A stretch of 52,322 nt of DNA from Bacteroidota bacterium (GTDB taxonomy: Bacteria > Bacteroidota > Bacteroidia > Bacteroidales > Prolixibacteraceae): contig JAJZSZ010000002.1 in assembly GCA_021849365.1 (NCBI GenBank), positions 1-52,322 on the forward strand, in the 5' to 3' direction. The first letter of the stretch is position 1, and each line of letters opens with the position of its first letter. The notes beneath the pieces are model-generated. The model worked only from the letters and a program-made list of their open reading frames with translations, ran no database searches and was not told the origin of the DNA. A program made the translations under genes and the position numbers. Shown here piece after piece: positions 41,936 to 52,322 of the stretch.

Positions 41936-42667
41936 TTATTGATTTTTATTGTCCGTATCGAGGGTCATCAGTCGTTTGAAGTGATTTTCAAGATGTTTTC
42001 TCATAGCTGTGCGGAATTTATCAGCATCTCTTTCTCTTAAGACTTCAACCAGTTCTTTATGCGAAACATATCTTTTGTTGGCGAACGTTTTATTTATTAA
42101 TCCACTTGTATAAACGTAGCTGAAAACCGGTAAAAGCATTCGTTGAAATCCTTTCAATGTTTGATTTCCCGTTATTTCGTATAGTTTGCTATGAAAAAGT
42201 ACTTCATAATCAACATCAAAAAGAGTATCTCCGGAGTAATCTGCTTCGTTCTTCACAATTGAAAACAATTCTTCAATGTCTTCGTCGGTAGCCCGGCTTA
42301 CAACCAGATCAGCCATTCCAACCTCAATAACCAGGCGCATTTCAAAGATATCTTTCAACGTTCCTTCATCCAAAATAGTGGGAATCATCGATTTCTGAAG
42401 GATAGAGGGCAGGTCCGGACTTTTGATTACAGCACCCTTATGTTTTTTTGATTCGATAAGCCCCATAGTTTTTAGGCGGGTCAACGATTCACGGATTACC
42501 GTACGACTTACCCCCATTATTTCGGCCAGTTCAAGTTCTTTGGGTATGGCATCTCCGGGTTGAAGTTCTTTTTGAGAAAAAAATTCAATCAGGTTCATTT
42601 CAACTTTATCAACCAGGCTGCGGGTATCAATGGCCTGAAGTCCGCTAATGTTATTATCTGCTTTCAT
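41936..42667 (-). CDS. FadR-subfamily GntR regulator (wHTH + FCD)
   Basis: LQPGDAIPKELELAEIMGVSRTVIRESLTRLKTMGLIESKKHKGAVI; C-terminal FCD region with FEMRLVIEVGMADLV. Confidence 0.92.
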   Translation of the reverse strand: MKADNNISGLQAIDTRSLVDKVEMNLIEFFSQKELQPGDAIPKELELAEIMGVSRTVIRESLTRLKTMGLIESKKHKGAVIKSPDLPSILQKSMIPTILDEGTLKDIFEMRLVIEVGMADLVVSRATDEDIEELFSIVKNEADYSGDTLFDVDYEVLFHSKLYEITGNQTLKGFQRMLLPVFSYVYTSGLINKTFANKRYVSHKELVEVLRERDADKFRTAMRKHLENHFKRLMTLDTDNKNQ

Positions 42668-42709
42668 GCCCGAACATTTTATAAAAAATATAGGAAATAT
42701 CTATCTGAA

Positions 42710-42722
42710 TATGTAATACATA
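42710..42722. promoter_or_regulatory. Candidate GntR operator 1 (autoregulatory)
   Basis: TATGTAATACATA palindrome, 43 nt upstream of the regulator start. Confidence 0.6.
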
Positions 42723-42725
42723 AGA

Positions 42726-42733
42726 CAAAAATA
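42726..42733 (-). promoter_or_regulatory. Candidate -7 box for the GntR gene
   Basis: Minus strand TATTTTTG (TAnnTTTG) just upstream of operator 1. Confidence 0.5.
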
Positions 42734-42968
42734 GATATTTCTTAAAAACAAAAGCTAATATAAGAGTAAAACTTTCAAATTAATTATTCGAAGATATTAC
42801 CAGGTTGGTTTTTCTCACAAATTACTACTATTTTTTTTATTTGTCCCGGGATGCTAGATTTCAGTATTCAAAAGGAATATAAGCGGGAATGAATTATGTT
42901 TTATTTTAGTTTTCCCTGAAAATCAATAATTCATGTTATAAATCATTCAAAAAAAAGTCTCAAAAAAT

Positions 42969-42998
42969 TTGGCTATCAAAATTCAATATCTATTTTTG
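42969..42998 (+). promoter_or_regulatory. Candidate susC promoter
   Basis: TTG 42969-42971, 19-nt spacer, TATTTTTG 42991-42998: Bacteroidota -33/-7 consensus. Confidence 0.6.
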
Positions 42999-43004
42999 TT
43001 GTGT

Positions 43005-43017
43005 TATGTAGGACATA
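43005..43017. promoter_or_regulatory. Candidate GntR operator 2, overlapping the predicted susC transcription start
   Basis: TATGTAGGACATA, sharing TATGTnnnACATAAGACAAA with operator 1. Confidence 0.6.
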
Positions 43018-43055
43018 AGACAAATATGAAATTTTCAATATTTAATTAAACCGTT

Positions 43056-46000
43056 ATGAATAGATTTCTTGCATTACTGCCGCTTTGGGTGGCGTTTTTG
43101 TCCCTGATGTCTTTTAGCCCGGTTATGGCTCAAAAGATGGTGAAAGGTACTGTTACTGATGCAGCAGATGGTTCAACAATTCCCGGGGTTAATGTTGTGG
43201 TGAAGGGAACTACTGTTGGAACACTGACTGATATTGATGGTAATTATACATTAAGTGTTCCCGCCGGAAAAGATGAAATTTCATTTTCGATGGTAGGTTA
43301 TGCAACTGTTACATTTACTGTTGGCAATCAGTCGGTAATTAATGTTTCTTTGAAAACATCGGTTCAGGCTCTCGATGAAGTTGTGGTAACCGGATACGGT
43401 GGTACTCAAACACGATCCAGAAGTACAAACTCAATTGCAAAGGTTGACAGCAAAAAGTTGAGTTCCGGTGTATTCTCAAATCCGGCACAGGCTCTTTCGG
43501 GTGCTGTTACCGGTCTTCGGGTTGTTCAAACCTCGGGTAATCCGGGCGCAACACCTAATATTATATTGCGTGGTGGTACAAACCTCGATGGTTCAGGCTC
43601 TCCACTGGTAATTGTTGATGGTCAGATTCGCGGAAGCTTATCAGACATCAATCCTGAGGATGTGGAAGATATGCAGGTAATGAAAGATGCTGGAGCAACT
43701 GCTATTTATGGTGCTCGTGCAAACAATGGAGTTATCCTTATCAAGACCAAAACTGGTAAAGCTGGACAATCGGAAATTAACGTAAAAGTGAAGGTTGGAG
43801 CTAATTACCTGAATAATCCTTATGATTTTGCCGATGCCGAAACTTATTTGACCTGGCAGCGTCCGGCTTACGTTAAAGCGAATAATATCTGGAAAAAAGC
43901 CGATGGTACAGGCGTTGGTTATGCCACAAACATTTCAACCCTTACCGGAGCTCAGCCTTATGGTACAGGTAACGCTTATTTTGCTGCTGATGGCACAACG
44001 CCACTTGTTAATACTACAAATTCAATCTGGAGTACAATGTACTTAACCGATCAGAATAAATTCCTGTTGAATCAGGGATGGCAACAAATGAAAGATCCGG
44101 TTTATGCTTTTCTGAAAGCATTGTATCCAAATGATGCTACTATTTCTGAAAATCTTCTTTTTAAGAATACGACTCCGGCCGACTACAATTTTAAAAATCC
44201 TTCATACACACAAGACTATAACATTAACATGTCGGGTGGTAACGATAAGGGCCATTATTACGCTGGTATTGGATACAACAATTCAGAAGGTTTGCCAATT
44301 TCATCGTACTACAAACGCTATTCATTTATCCTGAATGGTGATTATCAGATAAAATCATGGTTAAACTCGGCTTCCAGCTTCAATTTTAACCGTGCCAACT
44401 GGCAGGCGATGCCGGGTTCAAATACCAGTGAAGCCAACTATTTCAGCCGCGTGATTTCGTTGCCGCCAACAGTGCGTTTTGCCAGCGAAGACGGAACTCC
44501 ACGTTTGGGTAACAACAGTGGCGATGGTAACCAGAGTTTTCAGAATGACTTGTTTTTTGTCTTCAATCAGACTGATAAATTCACGATGAACCAGTCGTTT
44601 AAAATTGACTTTACAAAGAATCTCTTTCTGAAGCTTTCTGCAAATATTTATTACAGTGAGGCTTATAACGAAACATTCAACCGGGATTTCAGAACTTCGG
44701 CTACTGCATTCAATACCACCCGCAGTTCATCGGCAAATTTCGACAGAGTTTTTGATCAGACCTATAATGCATTACTGAACTATCAGAAACAAATTAAAGA
44801 TCATTTTGTAACTGCTTTGGTCGGTACCGAGTACTACGATACATACAACTATGGCGTTTACGCTGCTGGTTCGGGTGCTGCTACCGACGATTTTCGCGAT
44901 TTGGCGTTGACTTCGGCTGACAAGGATAAAAGAAGCATCGACTCATGGCATGCACAACAACGAATCCTTTCATTCTTTGGTCGTGTGAACTACGACTATA
45001 TGAGCAAATACCTGCTTTCGCTTGTTGTTCGCCGCGACGGATATTCCCGCCTGATTGACAATCGTTGGGGAACATTCCCGGGAGCTTCTGCCGGATGGGT
45101 TTTCACTAAGGAGTCGTTCATGGATAAATATTCCAAAGTTCTTTCATTTGGTAAACTGAAAGCCAGCTATGGTTTGAACGGTAACGTTTCGGGCATTGGT
45201 GCTTACGAACTTCAGGGAAGCTATGTTGGATCGACCAAATACAATGGGACATCAACATTTATTTTGGGATCAGTTCCAAATCCTAGTCTCCGCTGGGAAA
45301 AAACACGTACCCTTGAAGCTGGTGTTGATTTAGGCTACCTGAACAACCGTTTCTCTTCGAACTTTACATTCTACGACCGTTTAACCTCTGACAAGTTCGC
45401 AACTTTAACATTGCCAGCGTCTTCAGGTATCTCTGGAATCCGCACAAACAATGGTCAATTCCGCAACCGCGGTCTTGAAATTGAATTGGGTGCCAAACCA
45501 ATTGTTACTAAAAACGTGCAGTGGAATATTAACGCCAACATTTCATATAACAAGAATACGATTGTGAAGCTACCAAACAATGGACTTCCATTGAATCGTC
45601 AGAATGCTTTCCAGGTTTATTCAGGTAAGAGTGCTACTGATTTGATTTGGGTTGGTGGATATCAGGAAGGACAGGAGCCAGGAGTATTGTATGTATGGCA
45701 GGCCGATGGTATTTACAAAGATGCCAACGAAATTCCGGCTAACCGCATCGTAAAACCAATTACTTTCCAGGGTGCAACTACACGAACCCTTTATGGATCG
45801 GCTGATTGGGCTGCCTTAACCGAAGCACAGAAAATCTCGACTAAAGGCTTGCCAATTATGCCTGGTGATGTAAAATGGCGTGACGTGAATGGCGACAATG
45901 TAATTGACGACTATGACCTTGTGAAAATTGGAAACACAACTCCGCACTGGATTGGTGGTTTCAACTCAACCGTAAATTATAAGAATTTCAGCTTATATGC

Positions 46001-46427
46001 TGCATTCGACTATGCTTTGGGCTTCTCGGTTATGGATTACCGTTTGCCATGGATCCTCGGCGATATGCAGGGAACCTACAATCCAACCAATGATGTGAAA
46101 GATACATGGACAGCAGAAAATCCGAATGCAAAATATCCAACATATCAGTGGGCCGACCAGCTAGGAAAAGGTAACTATCGTAACTCGACCTTGTTTACCT
46201 ACAAAGGCGATTACCTTGCTTTCCGCCAGATTTCGCTTACTTATTCGTTCCCAAAAGTTATGTTGCAGAAACTTAAAGTTGAAAAACTGGAATTGTCGGT
46301 TACAGGACAGAACCTGGGTTATTTAACTGCTGCAAAAACGATGACCAGCCCTGAAAGTGGTGGTATTCAGGATGCCGGATACAGCTTGCCCAAAACTGTA
46401 ACTTTCGGATTAAATATCACATTCTAA
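43056..46427 (+). CDS. SusC/RagA-family TonB-linked outer membrane protein
   Basis: Signal peptide; carboxypeptidase-like repeat GTVTDAADGSTIPGVNVVVKGTTVGTLTDIDGNYTLSV; ALDEVVVTGYG; DAGATAIYGARANNGVILIKTK plug motif. Confidence 0.97.
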   Translation: MNRFLALLPLWVAFLSLMSFSPVMAQKMVKGTVTDAADGSTIPGVNVVVKGTTVGTLTDIDGNYTLSVPAGKDEISFSMVGYATVTFTVGNQSVINVSLKTSVQALDEVVVTGYGGTQTRSRSTNSIAKVDSKKLSSGVFSNPAQALSGAVTGLRVVQTSGNPGATPNIILRGGTNLDGSGSPLVIVDGQIRGSLSDINPEDVEDMQVMKDAGATAIYGARANNGVILIKTKTGKAGQSEINVKVKVGANYLNNPYDFADAETYLTWQRPAYVKANNIWKKADGTGVGYATNISTLTGAQPYGTGNAYFAADGTTPLVNTTNSIWSTMYLTDQNKFLLNQGWQQMKDPVYAFLKALYPNDATISENLLFKNTTPADYNFKNPSYTQDYNINMSGGNDKGHYYAGIGYNNSEGLPISSYYKRYSFILNGDYQIKSWLNSASSFNFNRANWQAMPGSNTSEANYFSRVISLPPTVRFASEDGTPRLGNNSGDGNQSFQNDLFFVFNQTDKFTMNQSFKIDFTKNLFLKLSANIYYSEAYNETFNRDFRTSATAFNTTRSSSANFDRVFDQTYNALLNYQKQIKDHFVTALVGTEYYDTYNYGVYAAGSGAATDDFRDLALTSADKDKRSIDSWHAQQRILSFFGRVNYDYMSKYLLSLVVRRDGYSRLIDNRWGTFPGASAGWVFTKESFMDKYSKVLSFGKLKASYGLNGNVSGIGAYELQGSYVGSTKYNGTSTFILGSVPNPSLRWEKTRTLEAGVDLGYLNNRFSSNFTFYDRLTSDKFATLTLPASSGISGIRTNNGQFRNRGLEIELGAKPIVTKNVQWNINANISYNKNTIVKLPNNGLPLNRQNAFQVYSGKSATDLIWVGGYQEGQEPGVLYVWQADGIYKDANEIPANRIVKPITFQGATTRTLYGSADWAALTEAQKISTKGLPIMPGDVKWRDVNGDNVIDDYDLVKIGNTTPHWIGGFNSTVNYKNFSLYAAFDYALGFSVMDYRLPWILGDMQGTYNPTNDVKDTWTAENPNAKYPTYQWADQLGKGNYRNSTLFTYKGDYLAFRQISLTYSFPKVMLQKLKVEKLELSVTGQNLGYLTAAKTMTSPESGGIQDAGYSLPKTVTFGLNITF

Positions 46428-46457
46428 AAGAGTTTAACCCAGAAAAATTTAAAACAG

Positions 46458-48023
46458 ATGAAAACAAGATATTTCAAATTCGTAATAGCTTTGGCTGTAA
46501 GCGCTTCGATGTTGTTTACAAGCTGCGACAGTCTCGATTTGGGTCCGATTGACAACTACGGAAACGCTAATTACTGGCAGAATCTGGCTCAGGTTCAAAC
46601 CTATGTCAATGGTATTCATTTAGATTTACGCTCAAATAATTTTGCGCGCAAATTCACAATGGGCGAAGCTCGTGGTGGGCTTCAGGTTATTGGTACTGGC
46701 TCGCAGGGCGCGTCAACTTACGACGATCCGATTAAAGGAAATACCATCAATGTTGATAATCCGGGCGTAACCGCATGGGGATCATATTATGGCAATATTT
46801 TCGACTGTAACCTGTTGATTCAGAAAGTTGAAGGTAGCAGTATTCAAACTGCCAACCAGAAAGATGTGGATTACCTGCTGGCTCAAACCTATGGAATTCG
46901 CGCATTGTACTATTTCACGCTTTACCGTGCTTACGGCGGGGTGCCAATTATCACCAGTGTAAAAGTGCTTGATGGCCAGGTTTCTCAGTCAGATCTTTAT
47001 ACTGCACGTTCAACAGCTAAGGAAGTAATGGATTTCATCAAGGCTGATTTGGATAAATCGCTGAATTATTTCGCTTCTTCAGGAAAAAGCTGGACAAACA
47101 ACGTAACCTGGTCGAAAGCTGCCACGCAGATGCTGGCTGCCGATGTTTACCTTTGGTCAGCAAAAGTTTCTCTTGATAATCAAGCTCCGGCTTCGGGCGA
47201 TTTAGCCAAGGCCGAAAGCTATTTGAATGAAGTGAAAAACAATACTCAGTTTGGTTTGGTAAGCGACTTTGCGTCTATTTTTGCGAGCAATAACGAATCG
47301 AACAAGGAAATCATTTTCAGCATTAATTATGCTGACGGCGAAGCAACCAGCAGTGTTTCTAACTTCCTTTATGCTGATGCTAATATCGTTTCGTTCTATG
47401 ACAAAGCCGGAGCAAAACTTGGCGATCCGCTGAACCTAAAAGGAACTGCTATTCAGCGTTATGAATATACCCTGAATTTCTGGAATGCATTTAAAGCAAA
47501 AGACAAGAGACGTGGTGCAACATTTATGGAGTACTACGATAAAAACGGCGTAGTAAAAGGAACTGTGATGAAAAAATTCATTGGATCAATTAACTCGCAG
47601 GGTGCGCGTGTTTACGACTCAAATGAGCCTGTATATCGCTATGCTGATGTGCTTTTGATGCTTGCTGAAGTTGAAAATATGAAAAACGGCGACCCGGCAC
47701 AATACATCAACCAGATCCGCCAGCGTGCTTATGGTACTGACTATGTTGCAGCAACCGATGCTTATGTGAATTCAGATTTCAAAACCAACGAGTATGCCAT
47801 TCTTGCAGAACGCGATTTTGAATTTGTTTTCGAAGGAAAACGTTGGTACGACGTCTGCCGGATGAAAGACGCTGCAAATGGTAAAGCACTGGCTTTTGAT
47901 GCCAATTCGGCTTACAGTGGAACGCCTGTGTTAAAATCGACGGAAGCTTTCAAACTGTTGTGGCCGGTTGATAAATCGACATTAAATGCTGATCCGAAGC
48001 TGGTTCAAACCTCCGGATATTAA
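46458..48023 (+). CDS. SusD/RagB-family nutrient-binding outer membrane lipoprotein
   Basis: Lipobox SMLFTSCDSLDLGP; RALYYFTLYRAYGGVPII; YRYADVLLMLAEVEN; ERDFEFVFEGKRWYDVCRM. Confidence 0.97.
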   Translation: MKTRYFKFVIALAVSASMLFTSCDSLDLGPIDNYGNANYWQNLAQVQTYVNGIHLDLRSNNFARKFTMGEARGGLQVIGTGSQGASTYDDPIKGNTINVDNPGVTAWGSYYGNIFDCNLLIQKVEGSSIQTANQKDVDYLLAQTYGIRALYYFTLYRAYGGVPIITSVKVLDGQVSQSDLYTARSTAKEVMDFIKADLDKSLNYFASSGKSWTNNVTWSKAATQMLAADVYLWSAKVSLDNQAPASGDLAKAESYLNEVKNNTQFGLVSDFASIFASNNESNKEIIFSINYADGEATSSVSNFLYADANIVSFYDKAGAKLGDPLNLKGTAIQRYEYTLNFWNAFKAKDKRRGATFMEYYDKNGVVKGTVMKKFIGSINSQGARVYDSNEPVYRYADVLLMLAEVENMKNGDPAQYINQIRQRAYGTDYVAATDAYVNSDFKTNEYAILAERDFEFVFEGKRWYDVCRMKDAANGKALAFDANSAYSGTPVLKSTEAFKLLWPVDKSTLNADPKLVQTSGY

Positions 48024-48173: not shown

Positions 48174-49850
48174 TTGATTATGAATTTAAAGCATTCGACC
48201 ATGGCCATTTTCAATATCGTATTTTTTTCTTTGTTGCTTTTTATTTCAACTGAATGTGTGAAAAGTGAATTGATTGTCAAAGAATCTGTTAGCGTGACAT
48301 CAGTTGAATTAAAGCAGAATCATTTACCACTTAACTATGGGGCAGAAAATGCAGGAGTATTTGAATTGCGTTTGGCAGTTACTACTGAAGAAGAAGCCTT
48401 ACTGCTGAATAATGTGGAGGTATTGTTCGATACTGAAAGTAAGTTTGCAGGTATTGAATCTATTTCTGCCAAATATTCCGGAGCTGTGAACGGATCGGAC
48501 ACGAATGTTTTGTTTGGCACTTCAAAAAATCTGAGTCAGAAAACAAATATTTCCGGAACCAGAGAATTAGGTACAGGGATTCATTTTCTGAAATTTGGGA
48601 TTGCAACAACTGCCAATCCTGATTTAATCAGCCGGTTCAGAGTTGAGAAAATTACCCTGTCGTTTAAAAATCACAAACCGGTCTCGGTTTCTCCAACCGA
48701 TAAATATATTTTCCGGCCTAAAATGGTGCTCCGGGCAGCCGGGCAGGATAACACCAATACTTACCGCATTCCCGGACTAATTACAACCAGCAAAGGCACG
48801 CTGATCGCCGTTTACGACAACCGGTACAACAACAGCAAAGACCTTCAGGAAGACATTGACATTGGTATGAGTCGCAGTACCGATGGCGGCCAAACCTGGC
48901 ACCCCATGCGCGTAATTATGGACATGGGCGAATATGGTGGTCGTTCGCAGCGATTGAACGGAACTGGAGATCCTTGCGTTCTGTTCGACGATAAAACGAA
49001 TACAATTTGGGTGGCCGCTCTCTGGATGAGTGGCGCTACCGAAAAAGATATGCTTTGGTGGGCATCGAAACCCGGAATGAAGCCAGAGGAAACAGGTCAG
49101 TTTATGGTGGTAAAAAGTACTGACGACGGTTTGACCTGGTCACAACCCATCAACATTACTTCGCAAATAAAAGATCCGGCATGGCAGCTGCTTTTGCAGG
49201 GTCCCGGACGCGGAATTACCATGACCGACGGAACTTTGGTTTTTCCGGCTCAGTTTAAAGTCGATTTGGGAGCAAAAGCCATTGATGGCGGTCAATATAC
49301 CTGTCATTCAACCATCGTTTACAGCAAAGATCAAGGAAAAACATGGCAAATTGGAACAGGAGCAAAATCAAATACAACAGAAGCACAGGTAGTTCAACTT
49401 ACTGATGGCAGCCTGATGCTAAATATGCGTGACGACCGAAACCGCGCCGATAAAGGCGTAACAAATGGGCGGGCAGTGGCTACCACAACTGATTTGGGAA
49501 AAACATGGACCGTGCATTCCACTTCAAATTCGGCATTACAGGAATCCAACTGCCAAGCCAGTATTATTAGTACTGATTTGATTATCAGCGGAAAGAAACA
49601 GCAGGTTCTGTTTTTCTCCAATCCGAACAGTAAAACTGATCGCAGCCACATGACTATAAAAGCCAGTTTAGATGGTGGTTTAACCTGGCCTGAGGCATAT
49701 CAGGTTGAACTCAATGCCGAAAATGGTTTTGGCTACTCGTGTATGAGCATGGTCGATAATCAGACCATAGGTATTGTTTACGAGGGTGTAAAAGAACTTT
49801 ATTTTCAAAAAATTCCGGTATCAGACATTTTTGGACCATTGGTTAAGTAA
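48174..49850 (+). CDS. Exo-alpha-sialidase (GH33-type, BNR/Asp-box)
   Basis: TYRIPGLITT (FRIP-type); Asp boxes SRSTDGGQTW, STDDGLTW, YSKDQGKTW, TTDLGKTW, SLDGGLTW. Confidence 0.95.
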   Translation: MIMNLKHSTMAIFNIVFFSLLLFISTECVKSELIVKESVSVTSVELKQNHLPLNYGAENAGVFELRLAVTTEEEALLLNNVEVLFDTESKFAGIESISAKYSGAVNGSDTNVLFGTSKNLSQKTNISGTRELGTGIHFLKFGIATTANPDLISRFRVEKITLSFKNHKPVSVSPTDKYIFRPKMVLRAAGQDNTNTYRIPGLITTSKGTLIAVYDNRYNNSKDLQEDIDIGMSRSTDGGQTWHPMRVIMDMGEYGGRSQRLNGTGDPCVLFDDKTNTIWVAALWMSGATEKDMLWWASKPGMKPEETGQFMVVKSTDDGLTWSQPINITSQIKDPAWQLLLQGPGRGITMTDGTLVFPAQFKVDLGAKAIDGGQYTCHSTIVYSKDQGKTWQIGTGAKSNTTEAQVVQLTDGSLMLNMRDDRNRADKGVTNGRAVATTTDLGKTWTVHSTSNSALQESNCQASIISTDLIISGKKQQVLFFSNPNSKTDRSHMTIKASLDGGLTWPEAYQVELNAENGFGYSCMSMVDNQTIGIVYEGVKELYFQKIPVSDIFGPLVK

Positions 49851-49856
49851 ATAAGG

Positions 49857-51836
49857 ATGAGAAGTCTGGGCGTCAAATATAAATCAGTGAAAATGGCTTG
49901 TTTGGTGGCACTTTTCATGTTGTTACAGAATTTTCATGGACATTGCAATTCGTTTGATGCTCCGGCTTTGATTCCGATGCCTCAGAAAATTGTCTGGGAT
50001 AAATTCCACTTTAAAATTGAAGGCAACGAATCGCGAATGGTTCGCCGGATTGTAGCTAATCTTCCTGAAGTTCCAATCAATCAGGAAGAAGCCTACACCC
50101 TTAAAGTTGATGCTGATTCATTGGTATTAAAGGCTAAAACAGCAAAAGGATTATTTCGTGGAGAGCAAACCATCCGGCAACTGACTTTTACCGAAAATGG
50201 ACAGCAGTTCGTTGCAGGTTGTGAAATTACCGACTGGCCTGCTTTTCAGGTTCGCGGGTTTATGCAGGATGTTGGCCGCAATTTTATGTCGCTGCTCCTA
50301 CTGAAAGAGCAGATTGATGTGATAGCCGCATACAAATTCAATGTGTTTCACTTGCATTTGACCGATAATCCGGGATGGCGGTTGGAAAGTAAAAAATATC
50401 CGCAGCTGAATGCCGCATTTGCAATGACCCGCCGACCAGGGAAATATTACTCTCAGGAAGAATTTATCGAATTGGTAAATTATTGCAATGATCGGTTTAT
50501 CACACTCATTCCTGAACTGGATATTCCCGGACACTGCGAGGCATTCCGAAAGGCTTTTGCAATTGATTCGATGAGCGATTCGCGTGTAAAACCAATCTTG
50601 CTTGATCTGATTGATGAGCTTTGCAGTCTGGTTCCAAAAGAGAAAATGTCCTACATCCATTTAGGAACCGATGAGGTTTGGACAAAAAATGAACGACCTG
50701 CCCCCGGGCTTCTGGATGCTTTGGTTAAACGTGTGAAGCAAAACGGCAGAGAAGTGATTGTTTGGCGTCCAGGGCAGCAGATTGATACAGATAAAACTTC
50801 AATCACGCAATTATGGTCGTCGAATGGAAAACCAAAAGCTGGTCACCGTTATCTGGATTCACGGTTGAATTACCTGAATCATCTTGACCCCCTGGCTGGA
50901 GTGGCACAACTCTATTTCGACCGGATCTGCGGAGCATCTCAAAGCGATTCACTTCGTTTGGGAGGAATACTCTGTTGCTGGAATGACAACAATGTGGATG
51001 ACGAATACAATATTTTACGGCAGAATCCGGTTTATCCCGGAATGCTCACTTACAGCGAGACTTCATGGAAAGGCCAGCTGCTTGACATTGGCGAAAAATA
51101 TCTGGCCAAATTGCCTGCGCATGATGATCCGCTTTTTAAGGAATTTCAGGAGTTTGAAAGCCGGTTGGTTCGGCATCGCGACCTGTATTTCCAGGGAAAA
51201 CCATTCCCATATGTCAGGCAGGCAGATATTTCCTGGAAAATCTTCGGCCCGTTTGACCACAAAGGAGAAGTTGACCACAACTTTAAAGGCGAGGAAGCTT
51301 TTGAAAAAAATATACCGTTTGAATACCGGAATTATGCTTTTTTAGGTCCGGTTTATGGCGGAACCATTCATGTCAGGCATTTTTTCGGATTTCCGTCATG
51401 GATTTCGGAAAAGCAGGGAACCATATTTGCAACAACCAAAATTTGGTCGCCAATCGATCAGCAGGTTGGGTGCTGGATAGGATTTCACGATTGGTCGCGC
51501 TCCGGCGGAAGGCGTGGCGGACCATTCCCCGAACAGGGACAATGGCACAACACCAACCCTAAAGTTTGGCTAAACCGAGAACTGATTGAACCGCCGATAT
51601 GGAAGAATCCCGGACTCGCTGAAAAAACGGAGGAAGTGCCGTTCACTGATGAGAATTATTTTTTTCGCGAACCTACCGGCATTTTCCTGAAAAAAGGCTG
51701 GAACGAGGTTTTGTTGAAAGTTCCACAGGGAGGGACGTCGTGGAAGTGGATGTTCACGTTTGTTCCGGTTCAACAGGATGGAGTGAATGTGCGCGAAGTT
51801 TCAGGATTAAAATACAGTGTTGATAACGAAAAATAA
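49857..51836 (+). CDS. GH20-type beta-N-acetylhexosaminidase
   Basis: GFMQDVGRNFMS; FNVFHLHLTDNPGWRLE; LIPELDIPGHCEAFRKAF; YIHLGTDEVW (catalytic D-E). Confidence 0.88.
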   Translation: MRSLGVKYKSVKMACLVALFMLLQNFHGHCNSFDAPALIPMPQKIVWDKFHFKIEGNESRMVRRIVANLPEVPINQEEAYTLKVDADSLVLKAKTAKGLFRGEQTIRQLTFTENGQQFVAGCEITDWPAFQVRGFMQDVGRNFMSLLLLKEQIDVIAAYKFNVFHLHLTDNPGWRLESKKYPQLNAAFAMTRRPGKYYSQEEFIELVNYCNDRFITLIPELDIPGHCEAFRKAFAIDSMSDSRVKPILLDLIDELCSLVPKEKMSYIHLGTDEVWTKNERPAPGLLDALVKRVKQNGREVIVWRPGQQIDTDKTSITQLWSSNGKPKAGHRYLDSRLNYLNHLDPLAGVAQLYFDRICGASQSDSLRLGGILCCWNDNNVDDEYNILRQNPVYPGMLTYSETSWKGQLLDIGEKYLAKLPAHDDPLFKEFQEFESRLVRHRDLYFQGKPFPYVRQADISWKIFGPFDHKGEVDHNFKGEEAFEKNIPFEYRNYAFLGPVYGGTIHVRHFFGFPSWISEKQGTIFATTKIWSPIDQQVGCWIGFHDWSRSGGRRGGPFPEQGQWHNTNPKVWLNRELIEPPIWKNPGLAEKTEEVPFTDENYFFREPTGIFLKKGWNEVLLKVPQGGTSWKWMFTFVPVQQDGVNVREVSGLKYSVDNEK

Positions 51837-51856: not shown

Positions 51857-52322
51857 ATGGAAAGGTTTGAAGGATTAATTGCAGCACCTTTTACTCCAAT
51901 GGATGTGAACGGTGAAGTAGTATACAATCAGGTTAGTGTTTATTACGATTTTCTGGAAAAGAACAAGGTGGTAGGTGCGTTTATCAATGGCTCGACCGGC
52001 GAGGGCGTTTCGCTTTCGCAAAAGGAAAAAATGAAACTGGTTGAGGCCTGGACTGCCAAATCGAAGGTACAGAAATCGGTAAAAGTGATTACACTTGTTG
52101 GCGGAACATCATACAAAGAATGCATCGAAAATGCGCAACATGCTGCCGAATGTGGCGTTGATGCCATCGCTTTGCTTGCTCCCTATTATTTCAAGCCTGC
52201 CGGAGCCAAACAGCTAGCTGAGTTTGTTGCGCTGGTGGCCGCTTCGGTTCCGCAAACGCCAGTGTATTTTTATCACATCCCGGTTTTAAGCGGATGCTAT
52301 GTGAGCATGTACGATTTCTTGC
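51857..52322 (+). CDS. nanA: N-acetylneuraminate lyase / DHDPS-family aldolase, truncated by the right edge
   Basis: MERFEGLIAAPFTPMDVNGEV...GAFINGSTGEGVSLSQKEK...VYFYHIPVLSG; locus context supports NanA over DapA. Confidence 0.85.
   Translation, partial: MERFEGLIAAPFTPMDVNGEVVYNQVSVYYDFLEKNKVVGAFINGSTGEGVSLSQKEKMKLVEAWTAKSKVQKSVKVITLVGGTSYKECIENAQHAAECGVDAIALLAPYYFKPAGAKQLAEFVALVAASVPQTPVYFYHIPVLSGCYVSMYDFL

Follow-up and report, generated by a model that had tools for sequence, protein, structure and literature searches.

A predicted NanR-like GntR repressor and its palindromic operator at a sialic-acid PUL of Bacteroidota

The DNA analysed here, referred to as the window, comprises positions 1 to 52,322 of contig JAJZSZ010000002.1 (assembly GCA_021849365.1) from a Prolixibacteraceae member, a Bacteroidota bacterium with a genome of 4.78 Mb. 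Two palindromes in the window most probably serve as operators for the FadR-type GntR protein encoded next to them, a NanR-like repressor that would be dedicated to a single sialic-acid operon and would leave the DNA on binding sialic acid or a breakdown product; we assign this reading a probability of roughly 0.87. Comparison of sequences across relatives supports the operator itself, its promoter-overlapping position, its tie to the regulator clade and the operon, and the absence of further clear sites elsewhere in the genome.

Results

The operon beside gntR is a sialic-acid PUL

The plus-strand operon next to the gntR gene is a sialic-acid PUL of the NanOU type, with a SusC/SusD pair, sialidase, lyase, mutarotase and transporter all present. 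The genes within the window are as follows.

41936..42667, minus strand: gntR, FadR-subfamily regulator (wHTH plus FCD), NanR-like, proposed repressor (Pfam, NCBIfam, orthologues)
43056..46427, plus strand: susC-type TonB-dependent transporter, gene 1 of the nan PUL, in the nanO position (TIGR04056 SusC/RagA, 759 bits)
46458..48023, plus strand: susD-type lipoprotein (Pfam SusD; NF033072 NanU, 269 bits)
48174..49850, plus strand: sialidase, nanH (BNR repeats; synteny conserved)
49857..51836, plus strand: GH20 hexosaminidase (Pfam Glyco_hydro_20, 4.1e-39)
51857..52321, plus strand: nanA-like lyase, interrupted by the contig end (Pfam DHDPS)

The SusD protein scores below the NF033072 NanU cut-off of 425, with NanU still its best NCBIfam model. 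The nanA gene continues at the start of contig C220 from the same genome, ahead of genes for a nanM-like mutarotase, an MFS transporter and a GDSL-esterase; this continuation, together with gene content by Pfam and NCBIfam, bears out the sialic-acid assignment made in an earlier note on this DNA. Loci of relatives additionally encode a sialate acetylesterase-like protein and an N-acylglucosamine 2-epimerase. On C220, one gene (L180, 3979-5070, minus strand) faces the end of the nan operon in convergent orientation and matches a BT2802-family ribose utilisation model below its cut-off.

Between the window and five near relatives, the adjoining gntR is 77-89% and the sialidase 65-76% identical, SusC is 49-51% and SusD 39-40% identical, and the SusC/SusD proteins of those five are 88-94% identical among themselves. 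The window's susCD pair (43056-48023) has apparently been swapped in place, with promoter and operator retained.

Two palindromes overlap the divergent promoters

The earlier note had reported 20-mers at 42710 and 43005, and both are present on the plus strand, TATGTAATACATAAGACAAA at 42710-42729 and TATGTAGGACATAAGACAAA at 43005-43024. The genome scan that it proposed gave exactly two perfect matches to the 20-mer TATGTnnnACATAAGACAAA in 4.78 Mb, both at this locus and 295 bp apart. Their core, TATGTnnnACATA, occupies 42710-42722 and 43005-43017, the sole two exact copies in the window. Loose matches to TATGTnnnACATA (up to two mismatches, window alone) are at chance level, 27 vs 25 expected, and the evidence therefore comes from the exact sites and from the relatives. 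The operator and promoter elements are listed below.

42704..42728, no strand: gntR-side operator, core TATGTAATACATA at 42710-42722, weaker outer arms, 6/11 symmetric
42726..42733, minus strand: -7 box TATTTTTG of the gntR promoter, reading from 42733 to 42726 (plus-strand complement CAAAAATA)
42968..42971, plus strand: -33 TTTG of the susC/nan promoter, 19 nt before the -7 box (from sequence)
42991..42998, plus strand: -7 box TATTTTTG (TAnnTTTG) of the susC/nan promoter (from sequence)
42999..43023, no strand: susC-side operator, palindrome TTGTGTTATGTAGGACATAAGACAA, 25 bp, 10/11 arm positions complementary

We looked for housekeeping promoters as a -33 TTTG and a -7 TAnnTTTG about 19-21 nt apart, the Bacteroidota -7 consensus being taken from PMC4747536. 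Such a promoter, TTTG-N19-TATTTTTG, lies at 42968-42998 and is conserved in relatives; both the TTG seen 19 nt upstream of the susC box and the pair of -7 boxes on opposite strands had been recognised earlier and are confirmed here. The gntR promoter has a good -7 box, but a clear -33 was not found at about 19-21 nt spacing. In the window and in relatives, the operon-side operator sits directly 3' of a TTTG-N19/20-TAnnTTTG promoter in the susC direction; most relatives have a TTTG or TTTTG -33 at similar spacing, and a strict TAnnTTTG lies 9-16 nt upstream of the operator in 49 of 74 relatives, the other 25 of the 74 having none at the expected distance. On the gntR side, a TAnnTTTG/TTTG or near match occupies the same place in L006, L007 and L008.

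The susC-side operator spans the expected transcription start. The gntR-side operator has perfect inner arms, with just 6 of 11 arm positions complementary across its 25-bp span, and its outer half overlaps the -7 box of the gntR promoter. The AAGACAA extension that the two sites have in common corresponds to one half-site of the conserved palindrome; at gntR this is the part that overlaps the -7 box. Sequence and aligned relatives thus uphold the proposal that one shared operator overlaps the predicted start regions of both promoters. The mirrored box context described in the same proposal holds for the window, where the 14-bp box AATATCTATTTTTG occurs in mirror orientation at both promoters, but it is specific to the window: in relatives the box differs between the two promoters, and conservation is limited to the -7 element and the operator.

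A site over the transcription start is the classic position of a repressor. Some GntR proteins activate, and position alone is no proof of repression; the regulator could thus bind these sites as an activator or dual regulator when sialic acid is present. We consider this improbable, as the operator follows the -7 box and covers the expected start, where bound protein blocks initiation; an activator would be placed upstream of the -33 element. We infer that the GntR protein binds the operator and represses rather than activates.

The operator is conserved with the regulator and the operon

Among 140 family genomes, regulator orthologues (at least 59% identity) are separated by a clear gap from paralogues (at most 41%) and occur in 42. 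The presence of gntR and nanH over these genomes is strongly associated (37/5/2/96, Fisher p = 6e-26). Two family genomes, G108 and G110, carry a sialidase of ~60% identity, and no regulator orthologue was found in them. Of the 30 fetched family orthologue loci, 29 have the site, allowing up to one mismatch, no further than 400 bp from gntR; at the 30th (L027/L106) it immediately precedes a displaced susC, with gntR 1.4 kb off (L106).

A scan of named GTDB genomes gave 80 loci, ranging from Prolixibacteraceae to Pontibacter, Pedobacter, Lacibacter and Flectobacillus and including Marinilabiliaceae. Across the 80 usable gntR-upstream regions (those of the window and of 79 relatives belonging to several orders), which overlap the family set and are mutually related, making the counts phylogenetically non-independent, TATGTnnnACATA occurs in 68 vs 0.08 expected from dinucleotide shuffling and TTATGTnnnACATAA in 59 vs 0.02 expected. 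When all arm and gap combinations tested were ranked over these regions, TATGT-N3-ACATA was the commonest palindrome, and the runners-up were mainly shifted versions of it. Position counts stretch the operator to a ~25-bp palindrome, about TTGTCTTATGTnnnACATAAGACAA, whose outer arms vary more among distant relatives. When the window is aligned with five relatives, conservation is concentrated in islands: the operon-side promoter and operator and, for the three closest (L006-L008), the gntR-side site. The stretch between them has diverged. Judged from these comparative sequence data, TATGTnnnACATA marks a real, strongly conserved operator.

In 20 extended loci, gntR is divergent from susC-susD-nanH-GH20-nanA as far as the contigs reach, with single genes missing in some; at L076 it is divergent directly from nanH. 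Where susCD is absent (L089, L097, L101, L105, L112, L119, L132, L147), the site precedes nanH, and in G093, in which nanH is on a separate contig, it lies within 50 bp before nanH. The operator stays with the first gene of the operon, even when susCD is missing or gntR is distant.

Two sites are present in 22 of 78 relative loci and one, beside the nan operon, in 52; no operator site was seen in 4 of the 78. The earlier note had envisaged repression of both the regulator's own gene and susCD. The repressor-like placement at the operon is conserved far beyond the family, which supports the second part; because a second site occurs in just 22/78 relatives, autoregulation through it is not general and would be lineage-dependent, expected for the window and for roughly one relative in four.

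The divergent promoters flanked by two operators in those 22/78 relatives could also suggest that a higher-order assembly binds both sites and loops the 295-bp spacer, with looping as the main repression mechanism. This is very unlikely, given the single site in most relatives, and we rejected it on the spacings in 24 two-site loci, which lack helical phasing.

The predicted regulon is confined to the nan operon

Scanning the 140 genomes with TGTCTTATGTnnnACATAAGACA at up to three mismatches gave a match at the regulator locus in 24 genomes. About 10 matches lie elsewhere, fewer than with the reversed-pattern control, and one of these is the site preceding nanH in G093. As off-locus matches are at or below control, the regulon seems limited, and from these scans it appears to be the nan operon alone. 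The short 12-mer gave counts at or below the reversed control over 295 order-level genomes and is hence uninformative by itself.

The operator was not found beside any of 13 diverged FadR-type paralogues (33-41% identity) from the same family. These paralogues form a second FadR-type GntR set (L165-L177), often located beside nanA- or nanH-like genes, and two of their loci (L173, L177) have TTTGTnnnACAAA-like palindromes upstream in place of the nan operator; a parallel regulator/operator pair may exist in this set.

Least probable of all is that another factor, such as the Crp-like regulator of Bacteroides, binds the palindromes, for although the half-sites resemble the wwwTATGTTnTAnAACATAwww motif predicted for BT4338 (PMC3878776), the arms are spaced by N3 here vs N6 there, TATGT-N6-ACATA occurs in 0/80 regions (on which two grounds we rejected it), a global factor should have many sites whereas off-locus matches in the 140 genomes are under the reversed-pattern control, and the site is tied to this GntR clade and missing beside its paralogues.

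The regulator has a FadR-type domain layout and a conserved metal site

The regulator matches Pfam GntR (5.6e-15) and FCD (1.4e-19), both above cut-offs, which gives the layout of the FadR subfamily of the GntR superfamily and agrees with the GntR/FadR-type assignment originally made. An AlphaFold model has the expected helices, and its top PDB fold matches are all GntR/FadR; the monomer pTM is 0.58, domain placement is uncertain, and the fold matches therefore give the family only. The best NCBIfam model is NanR (NF003011), at 115 bits vs a cut-off of 260, so that the curated model is not passed. GT-N3-AC is the established core of FadR-subfamily operators. This palindromic core is contained in TATGTnnnACATA, found in 68/80 regions, and the regulator is predicted to bind it.

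The FCD domain carries the metal-binding set (Asp/Glu, His, His, His) as E155, H159, H203 and H225, invariant among 20 and among 30 orthologues. In E. coli NanR, the metal (Zn) ligands are D172, H176, H222 and H244, and R128 is the salt-bridging arginine that contacts the effector (PMC8012715); these residues align with E155, H159, H203, H225 and R111, all invariant. The other NanR sugar contacts (N165, H214, N215, S218) have no identical aligned residues in the regulator, and Neu5Ac itself is therefore a candidate effector. The invariant metal ligands and arginine would be compatible with a carboxylated ligand such as Neu5Ac; such metal ligands plus an arginine are common in FCD proteins. We infer that the effector is sialic acid or a breakdown product.

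Discussion

By analogy with known systems, the regulator would be best explained as working like E. coli NanR and AusR. It shares with E. coli NanR, its second-best solved relative by sequence (8.8e-14), the GntR/FadR-FCD fold family and domain layout, the metal ligands with one Asp to Glu change, and a sialic-acid operon adjoining the regulator gene, whose control is here predicted; as for NanR, the neighbouring genes are those of sialic-acid catabolism. In E. coli, several NanR dimers occupy direct repeats of the form (GGTATA)3 with the help of an N-terminal extension (PMC8012715), whereas the conserved element here is not a (GGTATA)n operator but a single ~25-bp TTATGTnnnACATAA palindrome, and the operon controlled would be a SusCD PUL. 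Because neither the model cut-off is reached nor the operator type shared, we call the regulator NanR-like and not NanR proper.

Control of a PUL by a GntR protein, presented in the earlier note as a departure from the usual, has precedents. AusR of Zobellia galactanivorans is a GntR repressor of an alginate PUL, released by substrate-derived effectors (PMC8286568); it resembles the present case as a GntR-family repressor of a Bacteroidota PUL and differs in substrate. ManR (BT2103) and FucR (BT1272) of B. thetaiotaomicron are GntR sugar-use regulators, and the predicted ManR regulon, inferred by comparison only, includes a SusCD operon (PMC3878776); their sugars differ from sialic acid. The equivalent operon in Bacteroides would be under non-homologous control by NanR (BT0433), a ROK-family protein unrelated to the GntR protein of the window that is the predicted regulator of sialic-acid and GlcNAc use (PMC3878776); deletion of nanR in B. 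fragilis leads to constitutive aldolase activity (PMC3969230). Our search of the open-licence literature found no account of sialic-acid PULs regulated by this kind of GntR protein through this operator.

In the mechanism that we propose, a GntR dimer would bind TTGTCTTATGTnnnACATAAGACAA immediately downstream of the -7 box and block initiation of the nan PUL (susCD-nanH-GH20-nanA-nanM-transporter). In the window lineage, the dimer would also block the promoter of its own gene, acting at the weaker site that lies 295 bp from the first. Release from DNA would follow when the metal-binding FCD domain binds sialic acid or one of its close breakdown products.

The pair of regulator and site recurs with the nan operon across many Bacteroidota and is otherwise like known sugar-operon repressors. 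It probably represents an undescribed GntR/FadR-type sialic-acid repressor with its own palindromic operator, which in several Bacteroidota orders would control environmental nan PULs, while gut Bacteroides use the unrelated ROK-family NanR. The operator TTGTCTTATGTnnnACATAAGACAA and the regulator clade would offer ready markers of sialic-acid PULs across Bacteroidota, and the promoter and operator a compact candidate inducible pair for the phylum. The paralogue clades beside nanA/nanH genes, with different flanking palindromes, make regulator-operator specificity testable. The arrangement suggests that PULs outside gut Bacteroides can be under simple one-component repression and, if our reading is true, one operon type would be served by two non-homologous repressors within one phylum.
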